From assembly GCA_964019415.1 (NCBI GenBank), contig OZ025868.1:2887961-2951960 (forward strand): DNA of 64,000 bases. Direction: 5' to 3'. The stretch is from Ianthella basta. Lineage: Eukaryota > Porifera > Demospongiae > Verongiida > Ianthellidae. The notes below the pieces were generated by a model that was not told where the DNA came from, did not search any database, and worked only from the letters and a program-made list of their open reading frames with translations. The translations under genes were made by a program, and so were the position numbers. Shown here piece after piece: positions 4,305 through 62,203 of this stretch (the stretch's first letter is position 1; each line of letters starts with the position of its first letter).

Positions 4305-7300
4305 AAACCAAGACCAGTGCCAGGTGATGCATGTCTGAACTGGACATACCATGCATACTTGAATGGATCTATGCTGAAGTTTCTTGAACAAAGAGTAGAA
4401 GATGCGAGTTTGGTACTTGTGTTTGAAGTTGAAGACAGAGATCTAATATCACAGCTGTGTGTAGAAATCTTGGCTGTGGGGGACACTGGTCTTCAAAGCA
4501 ATTCAACTTGTGGTGAGTGCATGGACTTTGCCACTGCACTTAAATTTTGACATTAAGTGGTTACTTAAGTAAATGATGTATTTCTCTAGTTACAGTACAA
4601 GTGGAATCTGGTGACACTGGGTCATATGGTGAGTTTGAATGAAACTATGCTTGTCTGTGATGTGCATATTTGGTTGTTATATGTACTGGAATGATGAGTT
4701 TACTCCAATCACGCTCTGTTTCTGCAGATTGGATAGCAGGCGTAGTACTTGTACCAGTGGGCTGTGTGATTGCACTTGTGGTGGTGGTAGTGGTAGTAAT
4801 TGTCTGCTACTGGTACTGCCATAACACCCATAAGAAGACCACCGAGGTATGTATGTACTTTATATTCCAGCAATGTGCATTAATATTGTGTCGCACTGTA
4901 AACGGTTGTACACGTGCCTTATGCTTATATGTGGCATTGCATAGCACTATTTTAGCCTCATTGTGTAATGTTAACTCTGTATAATGGTGTGCATAGTTGT
5001 GTCCTCACGCACGTCAAACGAACAACGACAAGCAACATGTGCAACACAGGGAATGAGACTCTCGGCAAATCAATGATTACTGACGCAACAACAGGGTCAC
5101 TACAAAACTGAGCATGCGTAACTACATTCATGCATTTACTAAAGGAATTCTGAACATTACAAGCATGCAATATTCACAAACATACACCATGCACACTGCA
5201 CTTCCCCTCCCTCCCTTAAGAAAATGGCTACAAGCAAGCACAATGAGTGATGATCATGAGCAGATAAACATGGATACAGCAACTACTAAAATGAGGGGTG
5301 AAACCTGTCAGGTTCGTTATGCACTCGTTGCGTGTAACGAGGCGTCACTGGCATAAGTGAAGTAGGAGTGGAAGTGGCATCATCGGTTGATGAATTCTCA
5401 ACATGCCAACTGTTAGAGGATATTCCCTCTGTGTCAGCTATCTCTGATGAGGTCTCTGCTGATGTCTCAGCTGATGGCAATTCTATGAGCATGTCACTCA
5501 TCATTCACCGCCACTGTCTCTAGATCACTCCTTGCTTGCTGTCTCTCTGTGCGCTGTTGCAAGTGATCTTGATGCCTGCGTACAATCTTCCCATTTTGCA
5601 ATCAAATGCTGAAAGATACTGGGCCATTTGACTATGATTTCACCTGGGATCTACTTCTCCCCCGCTCTGAAATTCAGGACGTACACCAGATCACCAACTT
5701 CAAACTTGAGTTGATGAGCAGAAACATGCGTTGCTTTCTGTTGCAACTGCTTGTTCTCAACATGCTTTGCTGTGTTGGGTTTCAAAAGGTCCAGTCTTGA
5801 TCGAGGTTTCCGACCCAAAAGAAGCTCTGATGGAGAGACTCCTGTAGTGCTATGTGGAGCAAGTTGGTAAGCAAACAAGACTCGGGCAATTTGGGTATCG
5901 AGGTCACCTTCTTTAGCCCACTTTTGAGAATCTGAACTGCTCGCTCTGCCATTCAAAGATGGATGATAGGGTGCGGAAGTGATGTGCTTGATGCCATTGT
6001 CCTTGAGAAATGCTTCAAATTCTTTACTAACAAAGCAAGATCCATTATCAGTGACAATGGTTTCTGGCAAGCCAAGCTGAGCAAATAACATTCTCAACTT
6101 GTCAATCGTGACCTTGGATGTTGATGAAGATACTCTGAATGCTTCAATTCATTTAGAATGGGCATCGATCACGACTAAAATCATGTGACCATGCAATGGA
6201 CCTGCGTAGTCCATGTGCAGTCTGGTCCATGGGCACATAGGCCAGCCCCAAGGATGTAAAGGAGCAACTGGGGGTAATGACTGATTGGCTTGACATTGGG
6301 AGCAGGTGCGCACTGAATCTTCAATATCTCTATCAATTCCAGGCCACCATACATACATTCTAGCCAAAGCCTTCATCTTTGTCATCCCCAAGTGACCTTC
6401 ATGAAGTTCCTGCAACACTGCCTGCTGACCTTGTGGTGAAACAACCACTCGAGCACCCCACACAATGCAATCATTGTGCATCGAAAGCTCTGATTTGCGC
6501 AATGCAAATGGTGCTAGTTCCTGGTCACATTGGCTTGGCCATCCTTGCATGACAAACTGGAGAACTGATGCAAGAGAAAGATCTCTTTTCGTCCAATCAT
6601 AGATCTGATCTGCCATGAAAGGTGAGTCCGCCAAGCACTCTGTTAGAAGCACCAATTCTTATGGTGTAGGCACCTATTCTGGAACAATGGGTAGCAGAAG
6701 CCTACTCAAACACATCTGCGTTAGCATGAGCACGTGTATTCCGAAACCTCAATGTGTACTCGTAAGTGGAGAGGAGTAAAGCCCAACGGCGAACACGAGC
6801 TGATGCCTGTGGCAATGTTGGTCGATGCTAATTCAGGAGGGCAAGAAGTCGCTGGTGGTCTGTACACAGTTCAAAATGATGTCCAAACAAATGCGAGTGG
6901 AATCATCGGACACCGAACACACAAGCCAGTGCCTCCTTTTCAAGTTGGGAGTAGTTCTTCTCACTCCCAAACAACATACGTGATGCATACCTGATTGGCT
7001 GTTCGGATCATCAGGCATTTGGTGTGCAAGCACAGCTCCGACACCGTAAGAAGAGGCATCACAGGCAAGAATCAACTTCAACTGCGGGTCAAAGTGGACG
7101 CGGAGACGGGAGGATGTCAGCAAATCCTTTGATGCTTGAAATGCCTGCTTTTCTTTTGCCCATCACCAGCGTGTATCTTTCCTCAGTAATTTGTACAGAG
7201 GAGCAAGGACAGTCGATAAGTCTGGGAGGAACTTGTCATAATATGTGAGTAAGCCCAGGTGAGCCTTCAACTCATAAACATTCCGTGGACTGGGAGAATC

Positions 7301-9886
7301 TTTCACAGCTTGGACTTTGTCTGAAAGCGGATGCAGACCTTTAGGATCAATCTGATGTCCCAAATACGTGACAGAGTCAACCATGAATTTGCACTTGTCT
7401 CTGCGGACACGTAGTCCTGCTTTCTCTAGACGATCAAACACTTGGTCCAGGGTTTCAAATGTCCCTCATCAATCGCTCCTGACACCAAGATGTTGTCTAG
7501 ATATGCAATGACTCATGGAATTCCCTGCAGAACACTTTCTATCACCCGTTGAAATATCCAGGGGCTGATGAGATACCAAATGGTAGGCAAGTATGGCGAA
7601 ATAACCCTTTGTGGGTATTGATCACCACATACTGCTTGGACTCATTGTCAAGAGGGAGTTGCTGATAGGCTTGGGTGAGGTCAATCTTTGAGAACAACAT
7701 CCCACCTCCGAGTGCCGCAAAAAGATCCTCAACCTTGGGAATTGGGTATCTGTCTAGCTTGGACACTGGATTCACTGTCAGATGGAAGTCCCCACAGATT
7801 CGAATACTGGACTTGTCACTCTTCAGAACCAGAACAATTGGGGCCACCCACTCTGAGAATTGCACAGGCTCTAGGGTACCTTCCTTAACGAGGCGTTCCA
7901 ACTCGTCTTCCACCTTGGCTTTGAATACATACAGAATGGTATGAGCTTTGCAGAAGCGTAGCATTGGGCCCACCAGGATCCTCACCTTGTGCCCACGGAG
8001 TTTACCTAAGCCACCTTGAAACAATTCTTCATGTTTGGCGACAACTGACATCAACTTGTCCTGAAGGTAATGGATTTCTCTCCAGTCCAGTCGTATTTGC
8101 TCAAGCCAGTTTCTCCCAAGGAGGTTCGGGCCTTCCCCCTTCACTACCACAAGTGGTAGCTGAGCTACTTGACTTTGTAATTGATGTTGACATCCATGCT
8201 CCCAACAACGGGGATTGCCTCTCCCGAGTAAGAGCACAATCTGATGTTTGAACTCAATGGGCTCTTGTCCAGCCACAACTCTTTGAATGTTGCTTCAGAT
8301 ACAATGGACAGGACTTTCATCACCATCACTACCGGGCAATCTTCAATTGCTATTGTCACTGTCAAGGGCTTTGAACTGCCTGCTGATCCGATGTGAAACA
8401 GAGGGTATCCGTTTACCTCATCTTTTCGCTGAACCACACGCACGGACTGTGGTTTCTTCCCAGCTGCTGTCTTCTGTTTCATGCGGCATACGGCTTTGAT
8501 GTGTCCTGTTTTGCCGCAGTAGTGACACTTCACATCCTTGAACCTGCACTTGGCAGCACTGTGTCCTGACTTGCCACAGCGATTACGATTAGCACCACTG
8601 TCTGACTTCCTTTGATCTGGATGTGACACCTTGTGGACTCCTAGCATGTGAGTGGTACCTGTTGCTCCTGGCACCTCTTGTCTGAAGCCTGTACTTTGTA
8701 ACTGCTTGACATTTTATTCAGCTGACTCCAAATCCTGTGCCAGTTCAAAGGCCTTCTTGAAGGACAGTGTGGATTTAGCCAGCAGCCATCGCTGAATGCC
8801 TGCATCATTGATACCACAGACAAGGCAATCCCGGGCATGTCTTCTAGTGCTGCTCCGAAGTTGCAGACTCTGTCAGACACCAAACCTCTAAAACAAATGT
8901 TGCAACTGACTCACCAGATTTGCAGACCCAACTATGGAACTTGAATCGCTGCACACTCTCAGTTGGAGCAGGGCTGAAGTGATTAGCTAGTGCCTTGACA
9001 AGTTCTGCGTATGTCTTTGTATCAGGCTTTGCCGGTACGGTCAAATTTTGTAGCCATTTGTAAGTGTTAGCTCCAATAAGCGAAAGGAAAACTGCATGTT
9101 TCTTGTCTGCATTCTTGATCCCGTTCGCCTGGAAGAAGTACTCCAGCCACTCCTGGTACTGGGACCATTCTTCTTTGTCCCCATCAAACTCCTCGATTCT
9201 CCCGAGGGTCACTGCCATCTCTGCCCTGAGTTCTCGGCCCATTTCATCCGCCGCTACACAATCTGTCTCGGCAGTTCTCTGCTGCTCTACAATCAGTCGC
9301 TGTCTCTCGCTAATCTGTTAAGTGACGCTGAAGCTCTCTGAAGCTGTGCAATCTGCGAGCAAAGTCTCCGCTGCTCCAGGGGCTAGCTGAAGCACGACAA
9401 ACAGAAACAACAATAACGCACACGGCATGGATCCAACCTTGGGTCGCCAATGACATGGTGCTTCCCACAACCACCGTCAAACGAACAACGACAAGCAACC
9501 TGTGCGACACAGGGAACGAGACTCTCGGCAAATTAATGATTACTGACGCAACAACAGGGTCACTACAAAACTGAGCATGCGTAACTACATTCATGCATTT
9601 ACTAAAGGAATTCTGAACATTACAAGCATGCAATAATCACAAACATACACCATGCACACTACCATAGTGTATATTGCCTGTTATGTAATACTTTGATAAT
9701 GTATTGTGCATCCCAGATCCACAAATTGAATGAAGTATGGAAATCTGCGGCTACATCATTGGATAATTCAGTTGTGTCAACGGTAGGTACAAAGGTATTT
9801 TACAAATAATATTGTTTCTTTTGGAATTGTACAAATTGTGTAATTACTCACATAGATGTTTCTTTTGCAAATTATAGCATAAATAG
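4305..9886 (+). CDS. 3' part of a single-pass membrane receptor (FN3-like, TM, short tail), interrupted in an intron by a gypsy element
   Basis: Exon chain with coherent phases: 4305-4512 (starts phase 0, ends phase 1), 4590-4628, 4728-4846, 9717-9782, and a possible terminal 9878-9886 ending in TAG. The first exon has an FN3-like C-terminal half (LVLVFEVEDRD..., then a beta-strand-like LCVEILAVGD) and matches in phase and position the FN3 second-half exon of the minus-strand gene at 38518-38761. The 4728-4846 exon is a clear membrane anchor, IAGVVLVPVGCVIALVVVVV, followed by CYWYCHNTHKK. The 9717-9782 exon gives a 22-codon tail (starts IHKLNEVWKSAATS). The intron 4847-9716 contains a complete but decayed gypsy element in antisense. 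No signal peptide or first FN3 half is visible upstream; these exons are either lost or lie before position 1. Confidence 0.65.
5012..5197 (-). repeat. LTR, downstream (3') copy
   Basis: Direct repeat of 9475-9660 with five substitutions and no gaps. It lies beside the purine-rich tract at 5201-5218, which marks it as the 3' LTR of the minus-strand element. Confidence 0.85.
5201..5218 (-). promoter_or_regulatory. Polypurine tract of the gypsy element
   Basis: On the minus strand this is AAGGGAGGGAGGGGAAG immediately upstream of the 3' LTR, the expected site of plus-strand priming in LTR elements. Confidence 0.7.
5286..6655 (-). pseudogene. Gypsy integrase and polyprotein C-terminus, broken
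   Basis: The minus frame 6655-6149 has the N-terminal zinc-binding pattern (HEGHLG..., then CSQCQ) and MDYAGPLHG with the first catalytic aspartate. It ends AHSK followed by TGA, where family members usually have tryptophan, so a TGG to TGA change is likely. The frame 6097-5651 continues with TDNGS (second catalytic aspartate), but the segment after NG reads RASSSDSQKW with no glutamate in the expected place, so the third catalytic residue seems lost. A third open segment (5504-5286) carries the typical end of the polyprotein (PRYTQRVHNEPDRF). Confidence 0.8.
6833..8276 (-). pseudogene. Gypsy reverse transcriptase and RNase H, broken
   Basis: The frame 8276-7542 gives the reverse transcriptase fingers and palm (VAPIVLVLKSDKSSIRICGDF, KIDLTQAYQQLPL, HTCLPFGISSAPG). 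The catalytic box is in the next stretch (about 7490-7510) and reads AYLDNILV, so the second aspartate of YLDD is asparagine. The frame 7441-7163 carries the thumb/connection (SVTYLGHQI, LKAHLGLLTYYDKFLP). RNase H is visible at 7123-6833 (LACDASSYGVGAVLAH) and frameshifts after GMHHV. Confidence 0.85.
8165..9242 (-). pseudogene. Gypsy gag with zinc knuckles, running into a damaged protease
   Basis: ATG at 9242 opens MGRELRAEMAVTLGRIEEF, a typical gypsy gag start, with WLEYFFQANGI and FLSLIGANTYKWLQNL. The frame breaks near 8850 and again near 8650. The next open segment has two CCHC knuckles (RCGKSGHSAAKC and CHYCGKTGHIKAVC). It continues into a retropepsin-like region ending IVSEATFKELW, but the expected D-T/S-G active-site triplet is missing upstream of it, consistent with a small deletion. 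Confidence 0.75.
9475..9660 (-). repeat. LTR, upstream (5') copy
   Basis: Partner of 5012-5197. The sequence inside it toward gag (9451-9474) is not shared with the other LTR, so either the LTR extends to about 9452 and the left copy has diverged, or the true end is at 9475. Confidence 0.8.
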
Positions 9887-10497: not shown

Positions 10498-10501
10498 TTA
10501 A

Positions 10502-15800: not shown

Positions 15801-16067
15801 ATTATTACGACTCTTAAGCACCGATTGGATGCAAAGTGGAAGGAATTTGGTATGTTCCTCGGTGTAGAAGATTGGTTGATAGCAGCCATTGACACAGGAC
15901 GCAAACCAGAGGATTGCATGTTGGAGTTGGTGAAGAAGTGGATGTCCAAAGAGACAGGAACAGGGACCCTCCCTCGCACATGGCACACAGTAGTGAAGGC
16001 TGTGAAGGACACTGGTGTTGGAGTGCTTGCCGAGGACTTGGAACACCAACATGGAGTTCATCTGTAA
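12893..16067 (+). CDS. ZU5 and Death domain protein (intracellular adaptor type)
   Basis: Exons: 12893-13082 (ATG, ends phase 1), 13410-13981, 14057 to about 14205, 14301-14511, 14793-14882, 15323-15418, 15799-16067 (TAA). The second exon is a clear ZU5 domain: LLVGPDGGTFIMGSGDASLE, FPPGAVEKKISIRY, and PIQLFLSHW near its end. The following region (TFSQYFPANDTLFYRIQF, then IIFTVPKEQ) sits where UPA domains lie in UNC5- and PIDD-type proteins. Two short Ser/Pro/Ala-rich exons (14793, 15323) resemble each other and form a linker. The last exon is a Death domain (WKEFGMFLGVEDWLIAAI, ending WHTVVKAVKDTGVG). No signal peptide or membrane segment is seen, so it is probably cytosolic, acting by Death-domain contacts. 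The exon 5 donor is GC (G|GCAAGT). The boundary near 14205 is uncertain. Confidence 0.75.
14514..14610. repeat. Imperfect GT microsatellite in an intron
   Basis: GT-rich tract starting at the donor site of the 14301-14511 exon (C|GTGAGTGTGTGTG), so the splice donor is embedded in the repeat. Confidence 0.8.
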
Positions 16068-23839: not shown

Positions 23840-26800
23840 ATGAAGAAGCTTGTACAGGGTTTAGTATTACTCATCTGGGTCTGCTGTGTGACCTTCAGTG
23901 AGTCCATTACTGCTTGTTTTGTTTAATTGCTTTTGTGCTGTTTTTCTTTGCCATAACAGCAGACCATGCAGTGTTCTGTTTGACAACAACTGCATGTATA
24001 TTATCTACTTGCTTATACCTGTTCATATTATAGGGCTTCTTATGTAATGGTCAAACTATTACATAAGAAACCCTATGACAGGTGTGCATGTGGAATAATA
24101 ATAATATTATTATGCAGTCTTTGTCCAACACACACAGGAGGTAACTCTGGAATTAGATTCACCAACACACATATACGGTATGTTTACATTTTGAAGGGAA
24201 CTTCACTGCATTATTTCGTGCAAACTTTGGGCGAACTGCACACGAACATTGAGAGGAAACTTCACTAAGAAGTTTGGGGCAACTTTATACGAACTTCAAA
24301 CCTTTGGATGGAAACAAAATGGTACGTCCCCAGGATCAAACTTCACATGAACTTTGTGAGCCAACTTCAAATGCATGTTAACTTCTGTCAACCTTTGGAG
24401 GACTAAACTCTATCTAACCTGAAACCAACTTTGTATGGACTTCAAACGAATCCATCTCTAATGACCTTCCAGTAAACTTTGTTGTGTGCTTGTGTTAATT
24501 AATTCAAGGAATTTCGCGCCTGAAGTGTGATATTGTATCCAAGATTGTTTGAGAAGAGAAGTCTTAGAGAAGAAACAAGAAATATGTCAGCTCAGGAAGA
24601 TGCAGTACACCTCTTTCACATGGACGTGCAACCAGGTCAAACCCACGCTAGCTAATCTGGGTTTGACCCTCCCTCCGATTACCAGGGTCGAACTGAGTTG
24701 TTAGCCTGTGGCAAATGCTGGTTTGACTCACTTCATGTTAATGCATGATGTGGACACATTATAGTCCATTCTGAACCTGGGTTTGACCTGGGTTAAATTA
24801 GCGTGCTTGTATACTATAGTGCTCATGATTTAGTGAGACTTTTGTGTGCCCATTTTAGATCTATATTAGCTGATAATAATCAGACCGGGGTGCATTTATG
24901 GGGGCAGGAGGGATTCGCCACCCCTTGCAATAATTCCTCCAACCCCTTACTTTTGTATCTCCCCTTAAAATTAATTCTTGGAACATCAGTTTAACCACCA
25001 CCCCCATTTAAGAATTTTCTAAATACAGCACTGATAATGTCATATCAAAGGATTTATTCTAAAGGATTTATGCTAAAGAATAGCGTACATATGTATGTAG
25101 CTGGGCACCCCGTCTGCCAACAACCTATAGCTGTGTAACTTTCAACAACAATAAGTTGGTTTTCCTTTATATATAGTCCCTTTCTGTCTATTATCAATTA
25201 CATAGTTTCTGCCCAACGAGTGTTCCTCTCCTCCAACACCACCACTCCCTGTTTTGGTGACACTGTTGACCTCATCTGCTACTACCCTGATGTGATGGAG
25301 AGGTTTAATAGACAACCCAAGTACACTGTTACTACACCCTCCTGGAGAAAGGGTGGAAAACGCCTCTTCCTTGCCAGGGACAAATATGAGGAGGGCATTT
25401 TGAACCAGACAGCCTCAATATTCAGAGTGAGCATTGACCCAGCCATCTTCACTGGTGAACCTGTCTCCTTCACTTGCTTCTTACCATTGACTGTTGGAGG
25501 AGTGGACAGCAGCAACAGCATTACATTGAACCCACAAGGTAATGGTATGTACTGTATGCATGCATGTATGGGCATTACATAGCATGATAGCACTGAGTCA
25601 TAGGTCATCAATCACTTGCATAGAGTTCAGTAATGAAGAGCATGATATTGAGTATCATTTAACATGTCCACCCAATCTCAAGACATTGTAATATACATTG
25701 TAATGTAATTCATCTATTAACCCAATTAAGATGGTACAAAAGGGCAGGCAATGATTCTAAGCTCGAGAACTGTATTCCTCTTCATGGCATCTGAAGAAGA
25801 CTGAATTAGGAAACCATACATGCAGACAAACCTTTATTTTTACCCATGCAGTGTTCTGTCATATGATTTTGTTAATCTTGAAAATGTGGACACTATGCTA
25901 GTGCACTTTTAACATTAGATATGAACATTTTACGAATACAACATGCAAGAATTATAGTTAGACCACGTTTATGCAATTATGTAATTGTCTTCAGTGCTCA
26001 GCATTTCGATTCTGTTACCCCCTATGCCCACGCTATTCCAACACCAGTTTGTTGGCATCATCTGGATTACCTGGAGCTCACTGGTCAATCTCCTTGCTAA
26101 TCAGCTAATTTCCCACAAGAAGGCCAAAATGGCACATATTTTGTGCTTGTTTCAGCATAAAATCCTCAATATCACTGAGATCCAGCTCTAATCGGTTGCC
26201 GAGGTTATACCAAGCCCTCTCTATAGAGAGGACTTGAGAATACATACTCATTCCTCCAACGCTTGAGCTAGTCATGACTGAATTCAAATTCTACTATTGT
26301 GATTGGTACTATCAACTGGTTTCAACTGCATGCACTGCTTGCTTGCTTGCTTTTATCTTTGTACAATATACGTAGACTCTGCTCCACCACCCAGTCTCAG
26401 TTACCTCATAGTAAATGGTACCACTGTCACGCTAGCTTGGAACCACACTGACCAAGGACCCTGCTTCACCAACCTCACCTTCTCCTACAACATCACCTGG
26501 TACCCTGTGGTGGGTGGGGTCCCACTGAGGGGGGAGGGGCAGAGTGCTGTGACTGAACCAAGTGCAACAAAGTACAACATCACCAACCTGAGGACGGGCA
26601 CTGACTACCAAGTGGAGTTGTTTGGGTTCACCTCAAGTGACCCAGTTGTGTACAGTGGGGTGGCTACAGTGAACATCACAACAGAAGGTGTGTAAATAAG
26701 TATGTAGTATGTGCAGAGGACTGCAGAAGAAAATTTCTTGTTCATGCGTACAATATATATAGGCTACTGAACTTACCCGTATGAGTGTCATTACTTTTGT

Positions 26801-27281
26801 GTAATTAGTGTTTATCCTTAATTGGGCCTATGAAAATATTCAGCTTGTACTTGCTTTTAATTTGCATGGATTTTAGCACCTACGTATATAATTAGTTAAA
26901 CTCAATCAATGCACCAATAGTGACTTGAACTATTCATTGCACCTGTTATTGGCAGCTGCCACAGTACCCAGCATGGTCCTCTCATGCATGGTTTGGTTCA
27001 CTGGTTTGCATAAGTGCCAAAAGTGTGATTTGTACTTTTGGTCCTGTGTCATCCTGCAGTGTCTCTACCCACTAATGATACTTCTGGTGGAAGTGTAGGT
27101 GGTGCCGACGCTGTAACCATAGCAGGTAAGATGGCTGTAATGTCCAAGTTCCTAAAATTATTTTACAAGGAAATTCAACATGTGTAAATGGCATGTGTAT
27201 TAATACATGTTCAGAAGGGTGCTTCCGTTCTATTTACAGTTACTGTTGTTGGAGTACTTTTACTCATTAACAATCTTGAAG
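23840..27281 (+). CDS. Receptor with signal peptide, Ig-like and FN3 domains and a short membrane segment
   Basis: Exons, all with phase-1 boundaries: 23840-23897, 25206-25538, 26376-26687, 27060-27125, 27240-27281. The first exon (ATG at 23840) gives the signal peptide MKKLVQGLVLLIWVCCVTF. The second is Ig-like: DTVDLICYYPD (first Cys), WRKGGKRL (Trp) and GEPVSFTCFLPL (second Cys). The third is FN3: VTLAWNHTDQGP, YNITWYPV, NITNLRTGTDYQVELFGFTS. The last two exons join to make a hydrophobic run AVTIAGVTVVGVLLLI of about 16-18 residues, a short but plausible membrane segment. Downstream the frame stays open to a stop at 27557-27559 if the donor at 27281 is not used, adding a tail of about 90 residues. 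That tail overlaps a candidate antisense exon, so the 3' end is unresolved. Confidence 0.7.
24037..24088. repeat. Short hairpin in an intron
   Basis: AGGGCTTCTTATGTAATGG is followed within about 30 bases by its near inverse CTATTACATAAGAAACCCT, giving a stable hairpin with arms of about 18 bp. Confidence 0.6.
24170..24480. repeat. Degenerate AACTT-rich repetitive stretch in an intron
   Basis: The words AACTTCA, AACTTT and ACGAAC recur many times in about 300 bp at irregular spacing, as in a strongly diverged minisatellite. No coding frame is supported. Confidence 0.5.
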
Positions 27282-27426
27282 GTCAACAGTGTGATGTATG
27301 TAGATTACACAATAAGACAGCCAAGACAGTCTCGACTTCATTATACCAGATCTGCTCCATTCACGAAAACTCAAATGTATTAGTCACAATAAATCAGCCC
27401 ATTGGATGCAATGTAAGACAACACAC

Positions 27427-28956
27427 CTCCATATCTTCGGAACCCACTTCTGTCTTAAACAGCACTAGTGCTTCTTCGCTCTTAGTCTGTGCATCTACCC
27501 CCGGTGGTGGTGTTCGCCCCTCCTGGACAAAATGTTGCAACAAGACAGAAGCACTGTGAATTGAATAATTATACCTTGCATCATGCTGGAGTAAGTGCAG
27601 GCTTACGTCTTTGGCAAGTGCACGCATGCTCTCTTCATCCATTTCCGCATCATCTAAATGATCCTACGAATCATTTGGCACACATACGTACGTAGTGTAA
27701 GTATACGCAGAACTACACATATACTTACAAGAACTTTAACATAATGCTGCAAAGCTCATTGCTCTATCCAGCAATCATGAAATAAGAATGAATTATTTGA
27801 GCTATCATACACTAAGCCAGTGACACACATACACACACACACAGGCACATGTACATACATACACACATACACACATTCACAAACAAACAAACCATTGCAC
27901 AACACCCTGTGGAGCTTATGGGCTATGGATTGACAGACATACACATTGTTATGAACGCACCCACACTCACATTCATCCTCCACACTCACGTCTAGAACTA
28001 GTTATCACAAATTTGTGAAACTTGCAAAATAATAATACGTAGCTGCAAACATTTTGAACAGAGAGCCCATTGGATACATTGCAAATCCTTTGTAGTTTCA
28101 CAAACAACATTCTTATTCATTCTTCTGCGTCACACAGTGCAAATCACTCACTTCCTCATCTTTTGTACGTACTTCTTTCCACATCTTCCTTGGGTGCTGG
28201 CAGTGTTTGCTCCTCCTGGACCACACCCTGCAGCAACAGTAGTACTGTGACTTGTATATAGCCCACAATGCGTTGGAGTAACTGCAGGCTTACGTCTGTG
28301 GAGAGTGTGTCCTTGCCCTCTTCACTTACTGCGCCTACACTTAGCTCAACCTATGGGGTAGTTGGAATACATATTGTATGCATTATGTTAAGAGCACACA
28401 GCGTTAAATGCTCATTACACACACATCTATCACCGGACGTAATTCACTATGTAGCCAAGAGCTGATTATAAATGCCAAACATTTTGACAACTATTAATGC
28501 ACTTGCAATTGTCAATGTCAGTGCATGGTGAATACAACAAACATACGTACGTAGGAGAGGCTCACTTAATAAGACTAAATAGAGTATCAAATGGCTCACT
28601 ATATACATAGACATTAAAAAGAAATGAATATATACACAATGCTTAAGAGGTTCACTGTTACCACCAGCAAGAATGAAAAAGGAATAATTATACTATACAA
28701 GAAATCATAGTACAAGGTAAATAAGTTATACACATACACACATAATCACATCCATATCCATGCACACAAGCAAATGCACACACCACATGCATACACCTAT
28801 ACATACATGCTGGTTGCAAACAAACATACGTACACACATAAATACACACATACGCATATGTACACACATGCACATATTGTATGCACACATGCATGCAAAC
28901 ACATACATACACCAATCTCTCTCACACACTCACGTACGTACATCACACACACTCAT

Positions 28957-35111: not shown

Positions 35112-38100
35112 TCACGGCAACTCAGTCAGATCTTTGCCATTTGTTGCAGCTAGTGGCAAAGTTGGATCTGTATAGGACTCTCCAGTACTGCTCGTCTATG
35201 TAAGTAAACAAACACACAGCTTGTCAAATTTCAAACAGAACCAGCTGCATGCAGATCATACACATAGTCATAGAAACAAGAAGCTATACATACCTCATGG
35301 CCAGACACCTGCACTGTTTTCCGGATTTGCTCCATCTCTGCAGGAGGCATGTCCTGAGACACCCAACCTACAACTTCAGAATTATCATTTCTTCTCTGCT
35401 CCTTCCTTTCAAACTGATCAGGAAAAAAGCCATATAATTATAAGCATGGCACTGCATGGTATTGTACACGTGCTCCTAAATGCAGTGCTGTATAATTATG
35501 CCTTGAGCTTGGAATCAATCATGATGATTGAGTTCAGTCCTTGGCCATACTGTGCTAACCTCATCCTTGCTTCTTGCTGTGTTTTGCTTCACGATCTCCT
35601 CCCCTCTGGATAGAGGCATCTATGCGCACAAGTCATAACATTATATGTCATCAACAGCTAAGTACAGTTTTTGATATAACAGCTGGTTGCAAGAGTTTCT
35701 TGCACTATTTACTTTTAATCATGCACCCATGTAAGCTCACCTGTGTGGAGTAGCTAACAACAACAGCACTTTTCTTTCCCTGCATAAAATAGATCAATAG
35801 GCAAAGTTAACACACATAATATTATACATACACCCAAGATATACTGTATATATATATGCAGTACTGATCAATAGGTGTAACAGTGCAATAGTGGGAAAAT
35901 GCATGACTGCGGATGTCCATCAAAATGGCTTGTAAGCTACATGTTTGTCACTTATACACTTTCAAATTATCATCTGACTGTGATAGAAAGCTATTGAACC
36001 ACAACTGAACGAGGAGCAGGCGGATAAGTCAAACCATGCACTTACATAATCATAAAAGACATTAAAACAGGGATTCAATCAAGCATTGCAGCAGCAAAAA
36101 GTGTGAGGTGGTCACAGAACATTTTGGCTAAGGAACCTTTGGATCGTGCGCTACTGCTGTCAGAGATAAACATGGAAATGCCATGGTGACCGGTCCTTTT
36201 AAGAATTCTTTAAGAATGCACTTTAAGTAAATTTTTATTTGCTTGGGAAACTAGGTTAGACCCACATACTAGTATACAACCAATACATCCTTGTGGACTA
36301 TCCTGTACATTTTTCAACCCTGTACAGTAGTGGCGATACTATTCGGTTGTGTTACAGCATTACAAACTAATGCCACAATTCTACATAAACAGCACAACAG
36401 TTAGTTATGCTGTGTGATATAATTACAAACAAAATTATTATTAATATTATTCATCCCACATTTGCTGAGATGATCCATGCAAAAACATACCTAACTGCAG
36501 TGTAATACTTCAGTATGAGTAAGTTTCTTTAATTTGCTTCTCTTATACAAAATGTACTGCACATAAATCTCAAATCATATTCCTATGGCCATCGAATTGA
36601 CATACCATTTCTCATCGAATTGACATACCATTTCATTGAAGTATTTCACTGGATTGTGCTGGTTAGCTGAAACCAATTCACCAGAAACTCTTTGCTTTCG
36701 AACTGGTGAATTACTGCTCGAATCAGGTGGTTCATGATGAGTGATAATTCCAGGACACCTCTTGCCATTTTTGATTGCCAGCACCACTCCAATCAAAACT
36801 CCTCCACCAATAAGTATAAGTGCGGCGACCACAGGAACAACAATAGGAGTAATCAACCCTAGTGGGAGGAAGAGTAAGCTCAAGGTAACATGTGCACAGC
36901 ATGTGTGAACATTAATTTACCTTTATTATATTATGTATATGTAATTTTGGTTTACCATTTTCTCCATACTATAACCCAAGCTAACACTATTGGCCTAGTA
37001 TACCAATTGGTATAACCCAGGAAGATGTATATAATTCATTTGCATTCTTGCATGCATGTTTAGATTATTATGTGCGTTGTGTGAAGCAATCAATTGCAGT
37101 ACATGTTGCAAGGAATTTAAGTGGCTATGTAAATTGGTAGCTATTCAAATTCCTCATGTCCCTGACCATTTGTAATCAACTTTGACATGACAGGATGCAT
37201 GTACGCTGCTTTGCAAGTGTTCCTTGACAAGCTCATCGAACTTAAAGAGATTGGAGATCAATTGCCACACACTGAGGCAAGGTATATACAGAACTACGTA
37301 TACCTGTATATATATGGCCGCTTCCTATCACCACCACCCCACCTTGCATGGAAGAGGACTATTCATACAAATGTCCTTTATCTTCTTGGCCCAGATTGCA
37401 TTTCTAATTACAGTCACTCCCAGTCACATTCACAGCCATCATTACGTTGCTTCGCATATTGCAACCACCATGTTATAGATCAAACTATAGTAAACAAATT
37501 CACACAAGTATATGAACAGTAACACAGAAATGACCCAGTCAATTGCAAGATCCACATTAGTAAGTCAGTACTCATACAGTATGTAATAGTTACTACACGC
37601 TATCGTACAGTAATGTACACAGACATGACCCAGCCAAGATGCACGTTAGTAAGTTAGTACACATACAGTATGTATGCGAAACAGTCATGTGTTCATGACA
37701 CACCATTATTGACACCATCTGATGATGTATTAGTCCATTGTACAATTTCTGCAGTTTAATGAAAGGAGTACATATAATTAGAATTAAGCTGAACATTCCT
37801 GAGTGGCTAGGCATGCACATAACAGTATGCAAGATTTAAATGGTCCAATGCTAACCAGGTAGTTCATAGTAATTCACTTCGCTGTGAGGCAGATTCAGCA
37901 TGTGTAACCACTGGCCATTGTATATATTGCCGCACTACTGCCTCTGTTACAAAATTATATAAATTATGGCAAACAAAGGTCAAGTATATAACCGACATGC
38001 AGATGCAAGTGCATCCTTTCAGTGACACTGAGGCTCTAAAAATGTAGTATATGCATGCATGCACTTGAAGATTCTCGTGTATACATTTGCACATCCATTG

Positions 38101-40372
38101 TTACTGTATGAGCTTCAGAGCATTTTGCTTGCATTCAACTGATTTCCAACAAACCTAGCTATCACACAGGTCTTCTGTAATCTTGTGTGTATGGCCAGTC
38201 CCTTTGCCCCTTCTACACGCTATTATGCAACAGTGGAAACGGAGGATAGGGTCTGGCCATGCGACACTAGTCATCTAGGCCTGAAGATGTCTTTGCACCA
38301 TCTTTACAAAGAGTGTTCTCGTACATGCTTGTGCTCCACATTAAAGCATTTTTGGACATAATTAACCATGCAAGCATGTACTGACACTACCCTGCACAGG
38401 GTAGTTATACCAAGAAACCTGTACTTCAGGTGAAAGGTGTGGATAACCGCTAAATTCCTTTCATTAACATGCACACATTAATATGGCTGATAGCAATCTG
38501 TGCGGTGGGAAACTCACTAGAAACTGAAGGACTCGTTCTGTTTTCTTCTCCAGTCGAGTTGTCAACAGCAGTCAGTACAACAGTTAGTGCAGTGTATGGT
38601 TGCAGTGAAGCTACTGTAGTGAGCACGACTCTCAGCACCAGAGTTTGGTTAACTTCCTGCATTTCAGTCAGGCACTTCTCAAAAGTAGCCACTGTCTGAT
38701 TGGAATCATTCAATATGCGACCAACAAAAATGCCTTGTTCTGAGCAAAAGTACGTTTGTGCCTAATATCAAACAGCAACACAGACAGGGTGCATGTACAT
38801 TTCCATTATATTACGTCAGAAATGTAAAAACGTGAGATTCAAATAAAGCACATTAGCCGAGGTAACAGATTAGCATTGTGGCTCCATAATCAGGATGTCA
38901 TGAATTGCAATTGCCATCCACAAGCATAATTATAACAGTCTATAGCTAGCTTTACTGCTCTGTAAAAATTTAATGTGCTTGCAAATAACCGATCCCATCA
39001 ATTCTATTGTTTTCCAGTTCACTCCTATTCTGCGATTCTTATAATTAATATGTACAGCAAATTGCTCCAATCCATGTCATTTCTCCTTTACTAATAAAAA
39101 CATTCCCACCCAATGCAGAAATGTAATGGCATGAATATTTGTTGCCCAATGTCCACAGTGTGGGCTGAATTGTGGTTCCACTACCATAAGTCCACTTCCA
39201 TCACTTGCACATTGGGACAACATTATAATTATTGCCTCTTATGCATCTGCTCATCTGTCGGACAAGCATGGACCCAAAGGTGAGATTTTCTGACCTGGCT
39301 ACTTGCGGTGGTCAGCCTACCTATACTGCAACCACTATAGTGTTAATTATAGGTAGGCTGATCATGAGCTCTACTTCTAAATCATTTATATACTACTGTA
39401 TGTAGAGCACACTCTTGCATGCATGCACACTTTGAAGAGAGTCTCATACCATCAAAGTCAGTGTGAGGTATTGATCAGCACTGGACCAATCTGCCTTCAA
39501 GATATTCGGTGGTAGTGGTCCTGCAAGAACATTTTGTACTGTAACGAAGTGGTACATACAGCACTGTCAAACAATTTGCACTCCAGTGCGCATACATATA
39601 TACACTCACTCATAAACTCATCAATGTCTGCTTCACAAATTGCTGGTTGGTATCCGTCATGTAGAATGTAACAGATAGCTGAATACTGAAGGCATCGCTG
39701 GAATCCAGTAAAGTTAAAGGTGCCGTGTCCTACTTCAATATACACTGGTTGTGGTGTCATCCGAAGCCCACTGATAGCTGTTACACTGCATGTAATGTTG
39801 GCTTCTTTGAAGCAAGTCTGATCGTTCTCCACCGCAACTTTGATTAATATGAATTCTCGGTCATGCACTTCTTGCACTACATAGCACTGTTGGTTTTCAC
39901 CTGCAAACACATATTAAGCATGTAATAATGTGCTGTAATTCAGGCATATAAGATCAGAACCATCGCATATATATATATGTACAATGAGATAGAGGCAGTG
40001 AGCTGAGGCTCAGTTGCCTGCATGGCAAATATTCACATGCTGCACTTTACACAATGTGCACACCTTGAATGGCATGTAGTATAACAGGGTTAATGTTGGT
40101 ACTCGTCCTTGATGAGGCTGGCATCACCCATATCTGTACTTCTCCACTGGTTTCAAATGCAGAAGACTGCACACAAAAGCTGGCTGTTGTATGATTTTGA
40201 CTTGTTTCACTGAAATATTCCACTGAACGTAACAAACTGAAGGTGCCATTGTTCAGTGAAAAATGTGGAGGGTATTCCATAGGTTGAAGATAGCACAGCA
40301 CGACTGGAATACAGCCAAGTCTGGGGTTGACACATCTATGTGTCAATCCATCACAGAGAGTTAAGAACACTG
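35112..40372 (-). CDS. Receptor with two Ig-like domains, FN3, transmembrane exon and short tail
   Basis: Exons in coding order: 40372-40064, 39900-39610, 39520-39450, 38761-38518, 36858-36629, 35779-35741, 35619-35560, 35413-35294, 35195-35112. Lengths add to 1448 nt, which with one base from an upstream phase-1 exon is exactly 483 codons. The first two are cysteine-bearing Ig-like modules (CIPVVLCYLQP..., NITCSVTAISG...). The third and fourth form one FN3 domain split by a phase-0 intron (PLPPNILKADWSS and LQPYTALTVVLTAVDNSTGE). The fifth is the membrane exon (LITPIVVPVVAALILIGGGV, then AIKNGKRCP). The tail exons are all phase 0. The stop TGA at 35112-35114 lies inside a consensus donor (CC|GTGAGT), so the tail may continue. 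The signal-peptide exon upstream of 40372 was not found. Confidence 0.75.
36859..38517. other. Intron of the minus-strand receptor gene
   Basis: No extra exon with both splice sites was recognised in these 1.66 kb on either strand. Confidence 0.4.
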
Positions 40373-42238
40373 CTGCAATAATACATAATGGGGAAGACAA
40401 CAAACACACATGAGTGATTTACAGTGGAGTGTATATATAAATATACTACTTATTGTACAAAATTATACACACCAAACAATGGTGTCTTTTCTTAAGAGGA
40501 ATGGAGGAAGGTAAAGGTTCTAAGGGAAATAGATGTAAGTAGCTAGAGGTTCTTAAGGTAAATGTGTGGGCGATGGAGTGTGGTTTCATGGGTGTAAAGA
40601 AGAGAAGTTGGCTGTTGCCTGCAAACATCCAGGAAAGAGGAACAGTGGTTAACTGTAGTTGCAGTTGTACATTTATATGAAGTATATGAAGTAGGTAGGC
40701 AGTGGGAAGTGCTTGGATAGCTGAGAGCGAGTGAGGTGGAACAGAATCAGCAGGTCCATGAGAAGAGGAAATGGAGTAGCTATTGGCTATAGATGGCTAC
40801 AGTTGAAGGAGTAGGATAATGTGAGGCAGAGGCTGAAGGGAGAGCTGTTTTTGGTATCAGTGACATCGTTTTGGGTATTTACTATGCAGATTTTAATAAT
40901 AGCCTTGGGGAGGGTTCACGTGACGTAGAGGCCGGGTTACCGCTGCAAAATGGCTGCTGTTGGGCGTGCCCAAACTCGCCTCAATGAATTACAGGACTTA
41001 TAGTGAGTTGATGTGCATAGCGATTTATCTATGATCTGACTTGTGAATGAATTGTCTATAGCCTGAGAGGGGCACTAGCTAACCCTATAGACTTTCGTCA
41101 ACAGCAATTTTGAGTGCTGCAGTCTGATATGGATTGGGTATCCTTGGGTCTTGGGCTTTACGGAAATGAAATATCTAGACACCAGCGTTAACGATAGAAA
41201 CAGCTAGTGAAAAAGTCGCTACAAGTCGCTTTATCGCATGCTATTGGGTTAATGGGCAGTCTAGCGCAGTCGCGGGGGCACATGGACACGAAACAGGAAC
41301 AGGGCATGCGACACAGTGTAGCAGGGAAGAACCAGAACGCGTTCAGCCAGAAAGGGCATGCACATACATTGTCAAGTCATTATTATACAAACCAGTATTA
41401 GCGATCACAGGGAGTACACATAATGCTAGCAGTGTACCCCCGGGCACCCCCGGGCACTAGCTAACCCTATAGGCTTTCGTCAACAGCAATTTTGAGTGCT
41501 GCAGTCTGATATGGATTGGGTATCCTTGGGTCTTGGGCTTTACGGAAATGAAATATCTAGACACCAGCGTTAACGATAGAAACAGCTAGTGAAAAAGTCG
41601 CTACAAGTCGCTTTATCGCATGCTATTGCGTTAATGGGCAGTCTAGCGCAGTCGCGGGGGCACATGGACACGAAACAGGAACAGGGCATGCGACACAGTG
41701 TAGCAGGGAAGAACCAGAACGCGTTCAGCCAGAAAGGGCATGCACATACATTGTCAAGTCATTATTATACAAACCAGAATTAGCGATCACAGGGAGTACA
41801 CATAATGCCAGCAGTGTACCCGTGCACAATACTCTTAGTATCCCCATCATTCACTGCAGAAAAGAAGGAAAGACAGCTAGCTAGGTAGCTTGAACTGCGA
41901 TTGTCAGCCGCCCAACACAGCGAGCCATACAGTTGCTACTAATAGTAACGATGGATTGTGCTTCTAACTGTGCGTGCCATACATCGCTAGGCGTGCCGCT
42001 GAATCAAAAGTGAGGACGCAGCTCTATCCACTAAAACCGTCTTCAATTCAAGGTTTCACCGCAAGTTTCAGTCTTTCGGCTTCCTTTTAATACTGCTCTG
42101 GGGTGGGCAGCCACGAATTCAGGAAGTACGTACACATAATTAGTATCCGACTGCGTCGGCCTTATTAGTGTCGTATTATAAAGTGCATTCACACTCTCTT
42201 TGGTCGTAAGATTAATACTTGATCGAGGTGAACATCAA
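40373..42238. promoter_or_regulatory. Intergenic region between divergent receptor genes
   Basis: The minus gene (first identified exon 40372) and the plus gene (ATG at 42239) point away from each other, so promoters of both are expected here. The region contains a 382-bp tandem duplication (41070-41821) and a CpG-rich stretch near 40915-40985 with a CAAAATGGC motif. Promoter function is inferred from position only. Confidence 0.45.
41070..41821. repeat. Tandem duplication, period 382 bp
   Basis: Copy 1 starts GGGCACTAGCTAACCCTATA at 41070, copy 2 at 41452. I see only about four substitutions over some 370 bp (for example GGGTTAATG against GCGTTAATG), so the duplication is recent. Each copy has a 64-codon open frame, but it lacks any recognisable domain. 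Confidence 0.9.
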
Positions 42239-45439
<3,201 letters not shown>

Positions 45440-54464: not shown

Positions 54465-55968
54465 AGTTACTTTACTACTGGTCACACCTCAAGGTACATA
54501 GACTGCACTATAATATACACGTATACATAGATATAATTTTCATTCACTAGTGCATATGCTATGCTAAGTATGCTTCAGAATGTACTTTCCATTCCAACTG
54601 ATTGTAAATCCATGCACTGACCACCAGCTATTGCATCATCTGCACATGTTATGTATTGCATGTATTATACATACTAGTTTCTGTGTAATTCTAAGTAGAC
54701 TCAATCATAGCTTCATATCATTGTGTATGTACGCACAGATAAACCACAAAAGCCTGGAACACCTAGCAGCCACCCAGGAATATGGGAGGCAAGGATCCAC
54801 TGGAACAGAAGTAACGATCAATGCTTTGAGTCCCAAGCCTCCTGTGGACTGGAGTATAGTATTTCCTGGTCTGTATCCAGTGGTGGGTCTTTGTACAGTG
54901 CAACTGTTCCATATCCTGAAAATGAGTATACCATCACCGGCTTAAGGCCAAGCACTAAGTACACAGTGACTGTGAGAGCACAGTGCCAGGTAGACACAGC
55001 ACTGACTAGCTCAGGGTCCACAGTTTCCTTCACAACTGAAGGTAAGCAGAAAGTAATACACTAAGTGGACTGATTTTAATTATTTGTGAACTGTTGATCA
55101 CACCATTTTATATCTAACGCAGGTAGTAGAAGTGCCAATCTCAGTTAGACTGCCATCAATGACACCACCTGCTTTGAAATGCCAATTTATCTACAATGTG
55201 ACCACCCGGACGCAAATTCCAACGTGGAAGGGAATCCAGTGTTTACTTCAACTCGAGTGCAGTGGAAGAAGGATGGGGATTTCCTCACGGTGGACGATTT
55301 CACGTATCACATAGTTCAGCAAAGCAGACATTCAACTACTCTGGCTGTTACTTATCACAGAGAAGACTTCACAGATACAACCAGGAACTATAGCTGCTTT
55401 ATTGCTTTTGGTGAAGGTGCATTCTTAGAGAGCAATGAAGTGCAGGTCCACCTCAATGTTTCCGGTAAGTATGTGCACACATACACCTGCCCTATTTCAT
55501 AGCTATCTGCAGCTGTATGTAGCTCTGTACAGTATATACTCCAGGCCAATTGCATAATTATATTCTTTACTGTATATAATTCACTGCATTTTACGTTAAA
55601 TAATACATAAATTTACTCTTTCATGATATTAAATTATTCATGTCTTTCTTATGCTGCTTCCACTGTCTATATAGATGCAAACCTGTATAACTTGACAGCG
55701 AATGACAAGATACTGGATTTCTCACGTATCGTTGCTTGTTCGCTACTTGTTACCCCAGCAACAATCTACAACGTGACATTTACATATGCCCTGCCAACAG
55801 ATAATGGCATAGAGATGCAGAGTCTTAACATTACTACCCACCAGACACACATAGACCTCAGGAAGGTACTAGATGTCAATTTCTCATATGAGGGAGTAAG
55901 CGTCACTGCAGATATTAAGTGAACCAGGTAATTAAGGAGACTAAATCATGATCATGAATATGCTGTGT

Positions 55969-56094: not shown

Positions 56095-57354
56095 TAATTT
56101 GCACATACTTCACAGTATTCCTTGATTATGGTCTTTGGTGCAGATGTTGTTGAATTTGTTCTTACATCATCGGAAACATATGCATGTTTGGGAGAGACTT
56201 ACAAGATGAACTGTACAAGTCCAGAGCGTTTCAACAAATGTGGAGTGTCCTATCCCAATTGGTACAAGGATGGAAAACTCATTGCCGTCAACATTAGCTG
56301 CACAAAACGTTATAGCAACAGGATTGAAGAACTGACTGTCCATATACCTCGCTCCTACCAGAATGACAGTATCTACTACTGTGCAAGTAATAATAGAACG
56401 GCAGACCCCACATGTCTGAGCAACAACTTTCCAGTACGACCTCTGCGTAAGCTGGAATGCATGATTTTATGCTCAAATGTCGTGCATTTCAAAACGTACT
56501 GATGTGCACATGTGAATATATTCTTATAGTGAAGGCTTGCATGCACAAATACCCTTTATTTAAGGTAATTCAAAAAATTCATTATAACATTATACTTAAT
56601 TCATCAATTATACTTAATTGCTATTGTACCTCTCACAGGCCAACCACTTCAACCTGTGATCCAAAATCGCTCAATAAGTGCTACCACTACTACTCTCTCA
56701 CTTATGTGGACCCACAATGATGTGTGCTTTGCAGACTGCATTAAATATAACATTTCCTGGTGGACCCCACACAATAGCACACTTGTAAATAGAACAAAAT
56801 ACATCATTGAGGGTTTGCAGCCAGGCCAGATGTACACTGTCAAGATTTGTGCAGTGTGTAATGGATACCCTCCAAGTTGTACTGAAACCCAGCAGTATAC
56901 AAGCCAGCCAGCTTCAGGTGAGATACACAAGTACTGCACATATCGTACAGTATATACATGCCGTGTTAATATAATATAGATAGATCTAGAGGAATCTGCA
57001 GTACAGTATGTGGATGCCCACAATGTTATATTAACTTGAAATTGAAACTATTTCTTCTGCTCTACACTCATAGAAATGACCGGAATAATCATTGCAGCGG
57101 TATTGGTACCAGTGCTGGTTATTGGTGTATTGTCAGCCGTCATAATAATAACCATCATAATAATATGTCGTTATAAGAACAAGTGCAAATGCTCATTGCT
57201 GAGAAAATTGTGCGAAAAGTAAGTACAGCAAAATGGTGTGTGTGGATGGGTGGGTGTGAGTGTGTATATGTGTATGGGTGTGATTTTAAATTCTAAATTC
57301 CGCTTCTTTATTTTCTAATGGAAAACCAACAGCCTAAAGAAATGCCCCAACTAG

Positions 57355-60158: not shown

Positions 60159-60165
60159 TGGCACT

Positions 60166-60506
60166 TCAGAAGGTGATGCCAGTACCTTGGGCTGTTTCCT
60201 CTGCCCGCACCTTTTCTGATATCTTTTGCTCTTGCACCAGTTGCTTCTGCATTTTCCAAGCTCCTTTCTTAATGTTAACAATTGTTAGAACATAGTCCAC
60301 GCCACTGGGATCCTCAGAAGGTTTGCCTTCTACAAAGTGCTTTCTACAAATGATGTGGGCCACCAATCGACAGCACGACGACAGCAAACTCCTTTGATCC
60401 ACAACTCCGTTCTCTCTTCATCAGAAAGAGGAAAACGAAAGAATCCATATGGACATGACGGGACATCCCGATTTGTGCAGCTGTCGGCAGCACAAGAAGA
60501 CGGCAT
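60166..60506 (-). pseudogene. THAP zinc-finger domain, frameshifted
   Basis: ATG at 60506 gives MPSSCAADSCTNRD, then GFFRFPLSDEERTELWIKGV and DWWPTS, matching the C-x4-C, FP and WxP pattern of THAP domains. The second half (IICRKHFVEG, the C-x2-H pair) is in another frame, so one frameshift falls near 60345-60360. After it come KPSEDPSGVDYVL and a charged helix up to a stop near 60166. THAP domains occur in P-type transposases and derived host genes; which one this is cannot be told here. Confidence 0.55.
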
Positions 60507-60682
60507 GACTGACAATAAGCGCCGTTGGAAGCGCATTTCGGCTAGAATCCGGTACTTCTGCCGCTCGTTCTTCGTAATATAACTAGCTAAAAGGAGCCAG
60601 ACATTTTGACTTGACATGCTTTGAGAGTAGGGTAATATAGGTTAGGTCTGAAAAGAATGCACGCATAGCTGTCTTCCTTGCG

Positions 60683-60750: not shown

Positions 60751-60759
60751 CTAGCTATG

Positions 60760-61710
60760 CATGTGCCCTAGCTACCTCTTGTGCATTCATTCCTTTCTGA
60801 TTCAACCCTGTATAACATATTTTGGTTCGCTCTCAAAGCATACCCAGTTTAGAGCTCTGGGTCAGCTTAACTACGAAGAACGAGTGGCCCAAATACGCAC
60901 TCTAACATATTATCGCTGGAGCTTTTGCCTTACACGCTCGCGGGCAGCATATCACGTGACCAATGTGACAAAGGTCTATGTTGTCCTGTTCAGTGTGCTA
61001 GCTGTACTGATAGCTAACCACACCATTCACTTCGTACGTACGTAAACAATTGCAAATTACAGTCACTTATCTAAACTTATATCATTAATATTGCTGATTC
61101 ATTACAGACCAATAACTTTGTGTATGCTACAAGAATGGTGTGTATGACATGTGTGGTAAATGATCAAGATATCTCCACGTATCAGAACATACTGGGTGCT
61201 AGTCTGGCCCGCAAGCCCCTACTTCCGGTCCCCGATTGCATGTGGGCATATTTTAAACACCTTAGAGGGAACATACTGTGCAATGCGTAATTCACTAGAA
61301 TGCATGAAGTGTATGTTTAAAGAACACTGCAATACAGAGACATTCTCAATTCACTGAGACTTAGTCACACTAGCTGGGGTCGTGGGAAGTGCACTATGTA
61401 GTCACCTAGCTACGTACCCTATACACATGCTGTGCCATGTGACTATTTTATTTTTGCTCAAAACATCAAGTAAGAAAATGGCTCAAGAACAAGCTCTCTT
61501 TTGCTATGTTGTAGAGTGGTTGGGTTGTCGCGACATGCATAGCATGTTGGCAGGAAAACCCGGAGAAACGCACAACGAGCCGTTTAATACGAGCAAATGT
61601 TTGCCAAAATATCGCTAACATAACAGCATAAACAACGCTTTTATCCTTTACAGCACATTATCCACTGTTCTGCTCACCTTGATACGGAATTTCCTATAGA
61701 TTGCATCCTC
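60760..61710. other. Spacer, nothing recognised
   Basis: Short open frames without domain or splice support. Confidence 0.3.
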
Positions 61711-61718
61711 TTTCACAG

Positions 61719-61833
61719 AGAAAAAGGCTAAAATATATTCGCTCCACGATACGAGGTGAAAACTCGCATATTATTGACAGGTTTCCAAACCAAAACTAAG
61801 CTGCCGCCATTTATACATACGAAACAGCCATGG
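61719..61833 (-). repeat. Lone end of the fold-back element family
   Basis: GAAAAAGGCTAAAATATATT and CTGCCGCCATTTATA...CGAAACAGCC match the right arm 18238-18350 of the 17224-18353 element, with the part between diverged. Confidence 0.65.
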
Positions 61834-62125
61834 GTACGGCATTTTTGACACCGGATTCGTGTTTCTCGACCTCGGCAGCCCCATTGTGGCAATTTTCGGC
61901 AACTTTCTCCCATTATTCATGGAATTACAGATGATTTTAAAAGTGGAAAGTCTTGGTGAAACGCACTATATTCACTGGTTCTATTCATATCATGAAACCG
62001 GTCACCTTATGGGCAGGTCTCACCTTAGTAGGTCACGACTATGAAATAGGGTGACCACAGCAGCGTAGAAAGAGCTGCTGGAGTCTGTTTGATCTGCACC
62101 TACATAGATCACTGCTATGTTTCAG

Positions 62126-62203
62126 ATGTGGATGGCTCTCGCTACTGGAATTCTAAAAGCTGTTTCTTTGGCTGCTCTTCTCTGTTTCCGAGCTCCTGCA
62201 AAG
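62126..62203 (+). pseudogene. Signal-peptide exon of copy C, 4-bp deletion
   Basis: ATG at 62126 after the same acceptor gives MWMALATGILKAVSLAALLC, but a CTCT unit present in copy A is missing, so the exon is 78 nt and ends in phase 0, not phase 1. It would not join in frame to a standard phase-1 second exon. The remaining gene, if any, is outside the window. Confidence 0.6.

Follow-up and report, generated by a model that had tools for sequence, protein, structure and literature searches.

The window analysed here (one stretch of 64 kb, C1:2,887,961-2,951,960) contains several predicted single-pass receptor genes, designated A to E1, the exons of which are listed in Table 1. The gene models, predicted here from sequence, combine reading frames, splice consensus and homology, and both signal peptides and transmembrane (TM) segments were called from hydrophobicity. 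Signal-peptide exons were assigned for genes B and D and none for A, C or E1. Gene A is a fragment, made up of an ectodomain exon plus a TM exon. We read the window and the 200 kb on its right (264 kb together), the remainder of contig C1 being read only as fragments. Whole-genome queries were run against 209.09 Mb in 96 contigs; all comparisons are within this one genome and the match counts given for genes are lower bounds (best-scoring candidates only). On contig C96 (21,233 bases), the last in number, an open frame of 78 codons encodes ATP synthase subunit c (atp9). Among animals a mitochondrial atp9 gene is a sponge trait, and by this one gene the genome is very probably that of a sponge.

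Table 1. Receptor exons and genes assigned within the window, in window positions.
Gene	Feature	Position	Strand	Basis
A	last ectodomain exon	4324..4512	+	phase 1-1 by reading
A	TM exon	4728..4846	+	hydrophobic segment read; paralogue exists
B	signal-peptide exon	23840..23897	+	start, hydrophobic run and donor read; weak self-match
B	Ig exon, phase 1-1	25206..25538	+	CFGDTVDLIC...W...FTC; aligned with 12 relatives
B	FN3 exon, phase 1-1	26376..26687	+	Pfam fn3 1e-7; genome relatives
B	short membrane-proximal exon (inferred)	27060..27125	+	reading; self-match only
B	TM and tail exon (inferred)	27240..27559	+	relative at C1:2813862, 86%
C	predicted single-pass receptor	35112..40418	-	exon reading
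C	exons near	40418-40047, 39913-39497, 38761-38450	-	
C	TM	36916-36575	-	
C	tail near	35437-35112	-	
D	signal-peptide exon	42239..42295	+	reading
D	Ig-like exon 1, phase 1-1	42457..42780	+	alignment; paralogue 48% identical
D	domain 2 exon, phase 1-1, no fold assigned	42987..43313	+	paralogue 90% identical
D	possible short exon, phase 1-0, uncertain	43558..43625	+	reading
D	domain 3 exon, phase 1-1, predicted beta sandwich	44114..44440	+	reading, structure model
D	TM exon	44660..44791	+	reading, paralogue comparison
D	tail exon, YDTV and NPSYIPL	45282..45439	+	reading, motif scan
E1	FN3a exon, phase 1-1	54739..55041	+	Pfam fn3 2.3e-8
E1	Ig1 exon, stop in frame near start	55123..55464	+	reading, paralogue alignment
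E1	'mid' exon	55675..55895	+	phase-1 donor looked for, not found
E1	Ig2 exon, phase 1-1	56144..56446	+	part of Ig profile
E1	FN3b exon, phase 1-1	56639..56917	+	Pfam fn3 4.9e-10
E1	TM exon	57074..57218	+	reading, paralogue comparison

Other features share the window with these genes. A gene at 13388-16067 (+), lying among the receptors, has a ZU5-like exon (Pfam ZU5 19 bits, cut-off 21) and a weak Death-like exon. A 753-codon open frame at 641-2902 (-) with a reverse transcriptase match (RVT_1 3.4e-17) belongs to a LINE-like element, and frames at 5651-9317 (-) resemble, by eye, remnants of a Ty3-type retroelement. A 382-base unit is present in two tandem copies, 98% alike, at 41070-41821, and an open frame at 60330-60641 (-) has a cysteine pattern that, judged by eye, looks like a THAP domain.

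Domain identity and exon phase

The original prediction held that the genes of the window share one plan, with a signal-peptide exon, Ig/FN3 exons, one TM exon and tail exons. Several single-pass genes with signal-peptide, domain, TM and tail exons are indeed present, but the Ig/FN3 part of the description does not extend to gene C or to domains 2 and 3 of gene D: Pfam gave no Ig or FN3 match in the pieces of C that were scanned, nor for either D domain. The genome query with gene C listed six matches, all six being the gene itself, and no relative. Structure prediction of the gene D product, proposed earlier as a check, gives domain 3 a beta-sandwich fold (pLDDT 72), for which comparison with the PDB yielded no confident relative.

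Taken one by one, none of the Ig exons of the window reaches the Pfam Ig cut-off. In an alignment of 16 Ig exons, C14, C23, W45 and C89 are invariant, and the profile made from these exons has 181 matches in the PDB up to an E-value of 1, the best being DCC (1.6e-5); the best 60 of the 181 are Ig-superfamily or antibody chains, including JAM1, Thy-1, CD80, Robo 1 and NCAM. By sequence comparison the Ig exons of B, E and the array described below are assigned to the immunoglobulin superfamily, as is exon 1 of gene D by alignment only, with gene C excluded. FN3 exons of B and E are likewise assigned by sequence to the FN3 family (PF00041), with Pfam matches above the cut-off of 25 bits at 26303-26695 in gene B (E 1e-7, 32.5 bits) and at 54711-55064 (2.3e-8, 34.6 bits) and 56569-56979 (4.9e-10, 39.9 bits) in gene E1. 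The FN3 exon tested from a short gene of the array scored 20.6 bits, below the same cut-off.

The phase-1 borders that had been described for these exons hold up well. Domain exons were scored for strict GTRAG donors, nine from the window and 62 from the right flank; of these 71, 44 have one in phase 1, four in phase 0 and none in phase 2, against about 5% per phase expected from random placement. In the window alone, seven of the nine domain exons have a phase-1 strict donor; both B exons have weaker donors. Pyrimidine-rich acceptors of the 71 exons follow suit, with 51 in phase 1, five in phase 0 and three in phase 2 (raw counts, without a random baseline). Exons with phase 1-1 borders can be gained, lost or exchanged without breaking the reading frame.

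Extent of the cluster on contig C1

The cluster extends far beyond the window, and most relatives of genes A, B, D and E are found on C1 at 1.96-3.71 Mb. At least one paralogue of gene A exists in the genome, its ectodomain exon and TM being found at C1:2796063-2796572 with 67-74% identity. Gene B has at least 77 genome matches, 62 of them on C1 (all at 1.96-3.70 Mb), ten on C9, two each on C3 and C5, and one on C23. Within the best 51, those on C1 correspond to 15 Ig and 18 FN3 exons at 1.96-2.91 Mb. As far as 2.716 Mb these exons lie on the minus strand, from 2.740 Mb onward on the plus strand; B-type members beyond the window are known as short fragments. For gene E, at least 67 matches were found, all on C1 and 66 of them at 1.96-3.71 Mb, and for gene D at least 19, where all 19 are on C1 and two of these lie at 5.24 Mb. 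A query with a short Ig-FN3 gene placed 47 of its 49 listed genome matches on C1. The window sits in a complex of single-pass cell-surface receptors of about 1.2-1.7 Mb.

Outliers of the B-type family off C1 map to C9:2.63-2.66 Mb, C3:10.59 Mb and C5:10.45-10.56 Mb. The matches to B-type Ig and FN3 at C1:2,696,709-2,702,296 fall inside open frames 1816 and 1783 codons long, where members elsewhere have one domain per exon; this is perhaps an intronless or giant B-type member.

The search of the flanking sequence for further members that had been suggested was successful. To the right of the window, the 5,000 bases of C1:2951961-2956960 read as N, perhaps a gap, and an array of about 205 kb comprises nine long genes (E1 in the window, E2-E9 in the right flank) and 13 short-type TM exons, all on the plus strand. 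The long genes follow the plan Ig0-FN3a-Ig1-mid-Ig2-FN3b-TM, with E1 lacking a recognised Ig0 and E4 being diverged and without a clear TM; the short genes follow the plan Ig-FN3-TM-tail. The 13 short-type TM exons span C1:2,979,077 to 3,136,215, one of them containing a stop within the part that matched. Extra exons precede E3, E7 and perhaps E9, one of which is an Ig exon above the Pfam cut-offs (Ig_2 1.5e-9). We found no layout of the Dscam or clustered protocadherin kind, with many ectodomain exons and one TM/tail, as a TM exon follows eight of the nine long genes (E4 being unclear) and there are 13 short-type TM exons besides.

Segmental duplication is conspicuous in this array. The blocks S1-S2-E3, S4-S5-E5 and S9-S10-E8 are mutually 91-99% alike, E1 and E2 are about 96% alike across 4.7 kb, and a segment of 3.8 kb repeats, entire or in part, at the edges of the duplicated blocks, where unequal crossing-over would be expected. 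Stops in frame occur in E1, E8 and S9, that of the E1 Ig1 exon being missing from a near-copy 27 kb downstream, and in S1, S4 and S9 the Ig exon is in frame over its second half only; these stops and half-open exons point to birth and death of genes. The ectodomains, described earlier as very different from each other, are so when gene types are compared; among paralogues of one type, many are 57-99% alike, E4 being an exception with 25-45% in most exons.

Calx-beta domains and cytoplasmic tails

The 3.8-kb segment terminates in a two-exon Calx-beta domain (Pfam 1e-13, above the cut-off). Calx-beta domains occur in seven places of the 264 kb read, all in the flanking array and none in the window. 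At C1:3,089,756-3,091,160, a short-type TM exon comes after the Calx-beta exons, then an NPxY tail, and no Ig or FN3 exon was recognised in between. Ig-FN3 heads and Calx-beta heads therefore appear, where exons are joined by phase, to sit on one kind of TM/tail. The DNA of the 3.8-kb segment partly matches a cluster at C23:1.61-1.83 Mb, at 66-83% and mostly 67-74%, and Calx-beta is also common in other parts of the genome, a search in which 150 of 969 candidates were scored pointing chiefly to C11, C6 and C23. Large Calx-beta clusters lie at C11:4.8-6.4 Mb, at C6:7.36-7.44 and 8.45-8.47 Mb and at the C23 location just given; these are possible candidates for aggregation-factor loci.

Calx-beta is a hallmark of sponge aggregation factors, which are secreted proteoglycan cores. 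The domain is common to these factors and to short-type genes of the array. The array genes do not conform to the secreted, TM-less type, given that TM and tail exons follow Calx-beta, for example at C1:3089756-3091160, if the joining predicted from phase is right.

In the 264 kb read, nine open frames contain the signature YD[TS]V...NPxY, namely those of eight short genes and of gene D in the window, whose ectodomains are unlike. The minus strand of the same sequence has none. NPxY is a common endocytosis signal. The tails of D and of the short genes do not match each other in genome searches, so that their kinship is one of signature only. Regular expressions for ITIM, ITAM and hemITAM-like sites found none in the D tail or in the YDTV-type short tails; in the D paralogue both tails match ITIM (IIYDTV), and among the K-type short tails (such as DDDYLQLQANPSYIPI) three of six have a hemITAM-like DDYLQL.

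Constraint, variable cores and exon mosaics

The comparison of gene D with its paralogue at 2.80 Mb gives a different picture for each exon. Exon 2 is 90% identical (Ks 0.24), domain 3 is 63% identical (Ks 0.60) and the TM and tail are 83% identical, with the Ig exon at 48% and saturated for synonymous change; the introns are mostly unalignable except for simple repeats.

In the long genes of the array, median pairwise dN/dS values (pairs with Ks 0.02-1) are 0.26 for Ig0, 0.45 for FN3a, 0.31 for Ig1, 0.57 for mid, 0.51 for Ig2 and 0.49 for FN3b, and in the short genes 0.31 for Ig and 0.54 for FN3. These values, well below 1, indicate constraint and do not favour strong diversifying selection in the array. 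A descriptive scan of local windows found pN at or above pS in loops of Ig2 and FN3b and in a few other places.

The Ig exons of the B-type family have a hypervariable core. Across 13 of these exons, a core of 30 codons has a pN of 0.31 against 0.11 outside it and a pS of 0.46 against 0.16, a contrast in pS that was equalled in none of 5000 column shuffles; raw pairwise dN/dS exceeds 1 in only 15 of 78 pairs. Because pS is raised in the core along with pN, exchange of variable cores or homogenisation of the flanks fits better than selection on the protein alone.

Tree comparisons suggest that exons of the long genes have also been exchanged. In AU tests on seven of the nine long genes (p uncorrected throughout), the FN3b topology is rejected by all five other exon sets (p 0.0002-0.025), Ig2 rejects the topologies of Ig0, FN3a, Ig1 and mid (p 0.0021-0.0025) as well as that of FN3b, and the FN3b data reject the Ig0, FN3a and mid topologies. 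Several of the topologies rejected by AU are retained under the stricter SH test, with p 0.07, for instance, for Ig2 against four topologies. By the AU tests, exons within one gene have conflicting histories, and the genes are mosaic at the level of the exon.

The original prediction of a turning-over Ig-type array gains support from the clustering on C1, the recent segmental duplications, the in-frame stops, the exon mosaics and the hypervariable Ig core.

Discussion

In our judgement the C1 complex is best explained as a set of modular, tyrosine-tailed recognition receptors that evolve by duplication and exon exchange, a reading that we hold to be reasonably probable. Each receptor would be assembled from mostly phase 1-1 exons (Ig, FN3, some Calx-beta and unassigned domains), followed by a TM segment and a short tail bearing tyrosines. 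The ectodomains would bind ligands on other cells or on microbes, and signalling may start from phosphotyrosines of the Yxx[LIV] and NPxY sites in the tails, at which SH2 or PTB proteins would dock. Duplication and exon exchange would keep yielding new combinations of ectodomain and tail, as in recognition loci. A role in recognition, whether of self and non-self or of microbes, is likewise somewhat favoured by the sequence; allorecognition in particular seems doubtful. The most far-reaching proposal is that the complex would be the sponge histocompatibility region. Its polymorphic receptors would place exchangeable Ig/FN3 and Calx-beta heads in front of a shared kind of tyrosine tail, connect the Calx-beta of aggregation factors with Ig-type allorecognition and gain new specificities through exon exchange between neighbours; we consider this proposal unlikely.

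It is quite possible, if short of probable, that the complex represents an enlarged repertoire of microbe sensors in a filter-feeding animal and takes no part in allorecognition, the variable Ig/FN3/Calx-beta heads binding microbial ligands and the tyrosine tails triggering uptake. The NPxY sites of the tails and the constraint on most exons agree with such a function. In one sponge, Ig-, FN3- and Calx-beta-containing genes are described among those altered by microbial cues (PMC6208332, in part), and an excerpt on another sponge reports that its receptor genes are mostly expressed in an individual-specific way (PMC8242945). Against microbe sensing, the 33 pieces scanned, which cover part of the complex, gave no SRCR, C-type lectin or LRR match.

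Ordinary adhesion and tissue receptors of the NCAM or DCC sort, tandemly duplicated by chance, would account for the nearest PDB relatives of the Ig profile (DCC, JAM1, Robo 1 and NCAM being among the best 60 of 181) and for dN/dS below 1. Structural adhesion genes would however not usually come as about 20 copies in 205 kb, with stops in some, exon mosaics, a hypervariable core and blocks that are 91-99% alike. This is a judgement made without a control family, and we regard the adhesion explanation as improbable. That the array is partly an assembly artefact, with unmerged haplotypes set in tandem, is very improbable: the likeness of E1 to E2 and of the three blocks and the 5-kb stretch of N adjoining the window are what it would predict, and some near-identical copies could be unmerged haplotypes, but three block copies with differing neighbours and divergence up to saturation need real duplication.

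The complex of modular recognition receptors that we favour can be set beside systems studied in other animals. The Hydractinia Alr complex, to which the original prediction had pointed, is described as an extensive region of single-pass IgSF genes, the members of which share little identity and include many presumed pseudogenes, as here (PMC11067881). The Alr traits of a signal peptide and a single-pass TM are seen, as hydrophobic stretches, in D and B, and that of a clustered multigene complex in one chromosome region is seen in the C1 complex. Unlike in Alr, FN3 and Calx-beta exons are mixed in here and the tails carry YDTV/NPxY. ITAM/ITIM motifs are reported for Hydractinia candidate allorecognition genes in a recent review (PMC12065747), and most tails of the C1 complex that were examined differ in their motifs. 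We take the likeness to Alr to be apt in genetic form only, and make no claim of membership. The same review describes Botryllus fuhc as a linked locus whose Ig receptor family carries ITIM and hemITAM motifs and whose genes undergo birth and death (PMC12065747); Botryllus is a chordate in which the function of fester and uncle fester was shown by knock-down, and the C1 complex is likened to it by description. Among sponges, the receptor tyrosine kinase of Geodia cydonium is cited as a cell-surface receptor with Ig-like domains, as here (PMC12018476). The Geodia receptor is a kinase, whereas the 20 window pieces scanned gave no kinase match.

The mechanisms of invertebrate allorecognition were called a complete mystery in that 2025 review, parts of which also state that candidate proteins are not conserved across sponges, cnidarians and ascidians (PMC12065747). 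The bounded complex described here, with its duplicating receptors and what appear to be exchangeable heads on common tails, offers a concrete locus for the genotyping of graft pairs, and is a testable candidate for self/non-self discrimination or microbe sensing in sponges. If the recognition role is true, the solution of a cluster of Ig receptors would also have arisen in one of the earliest-branching animal phyla.
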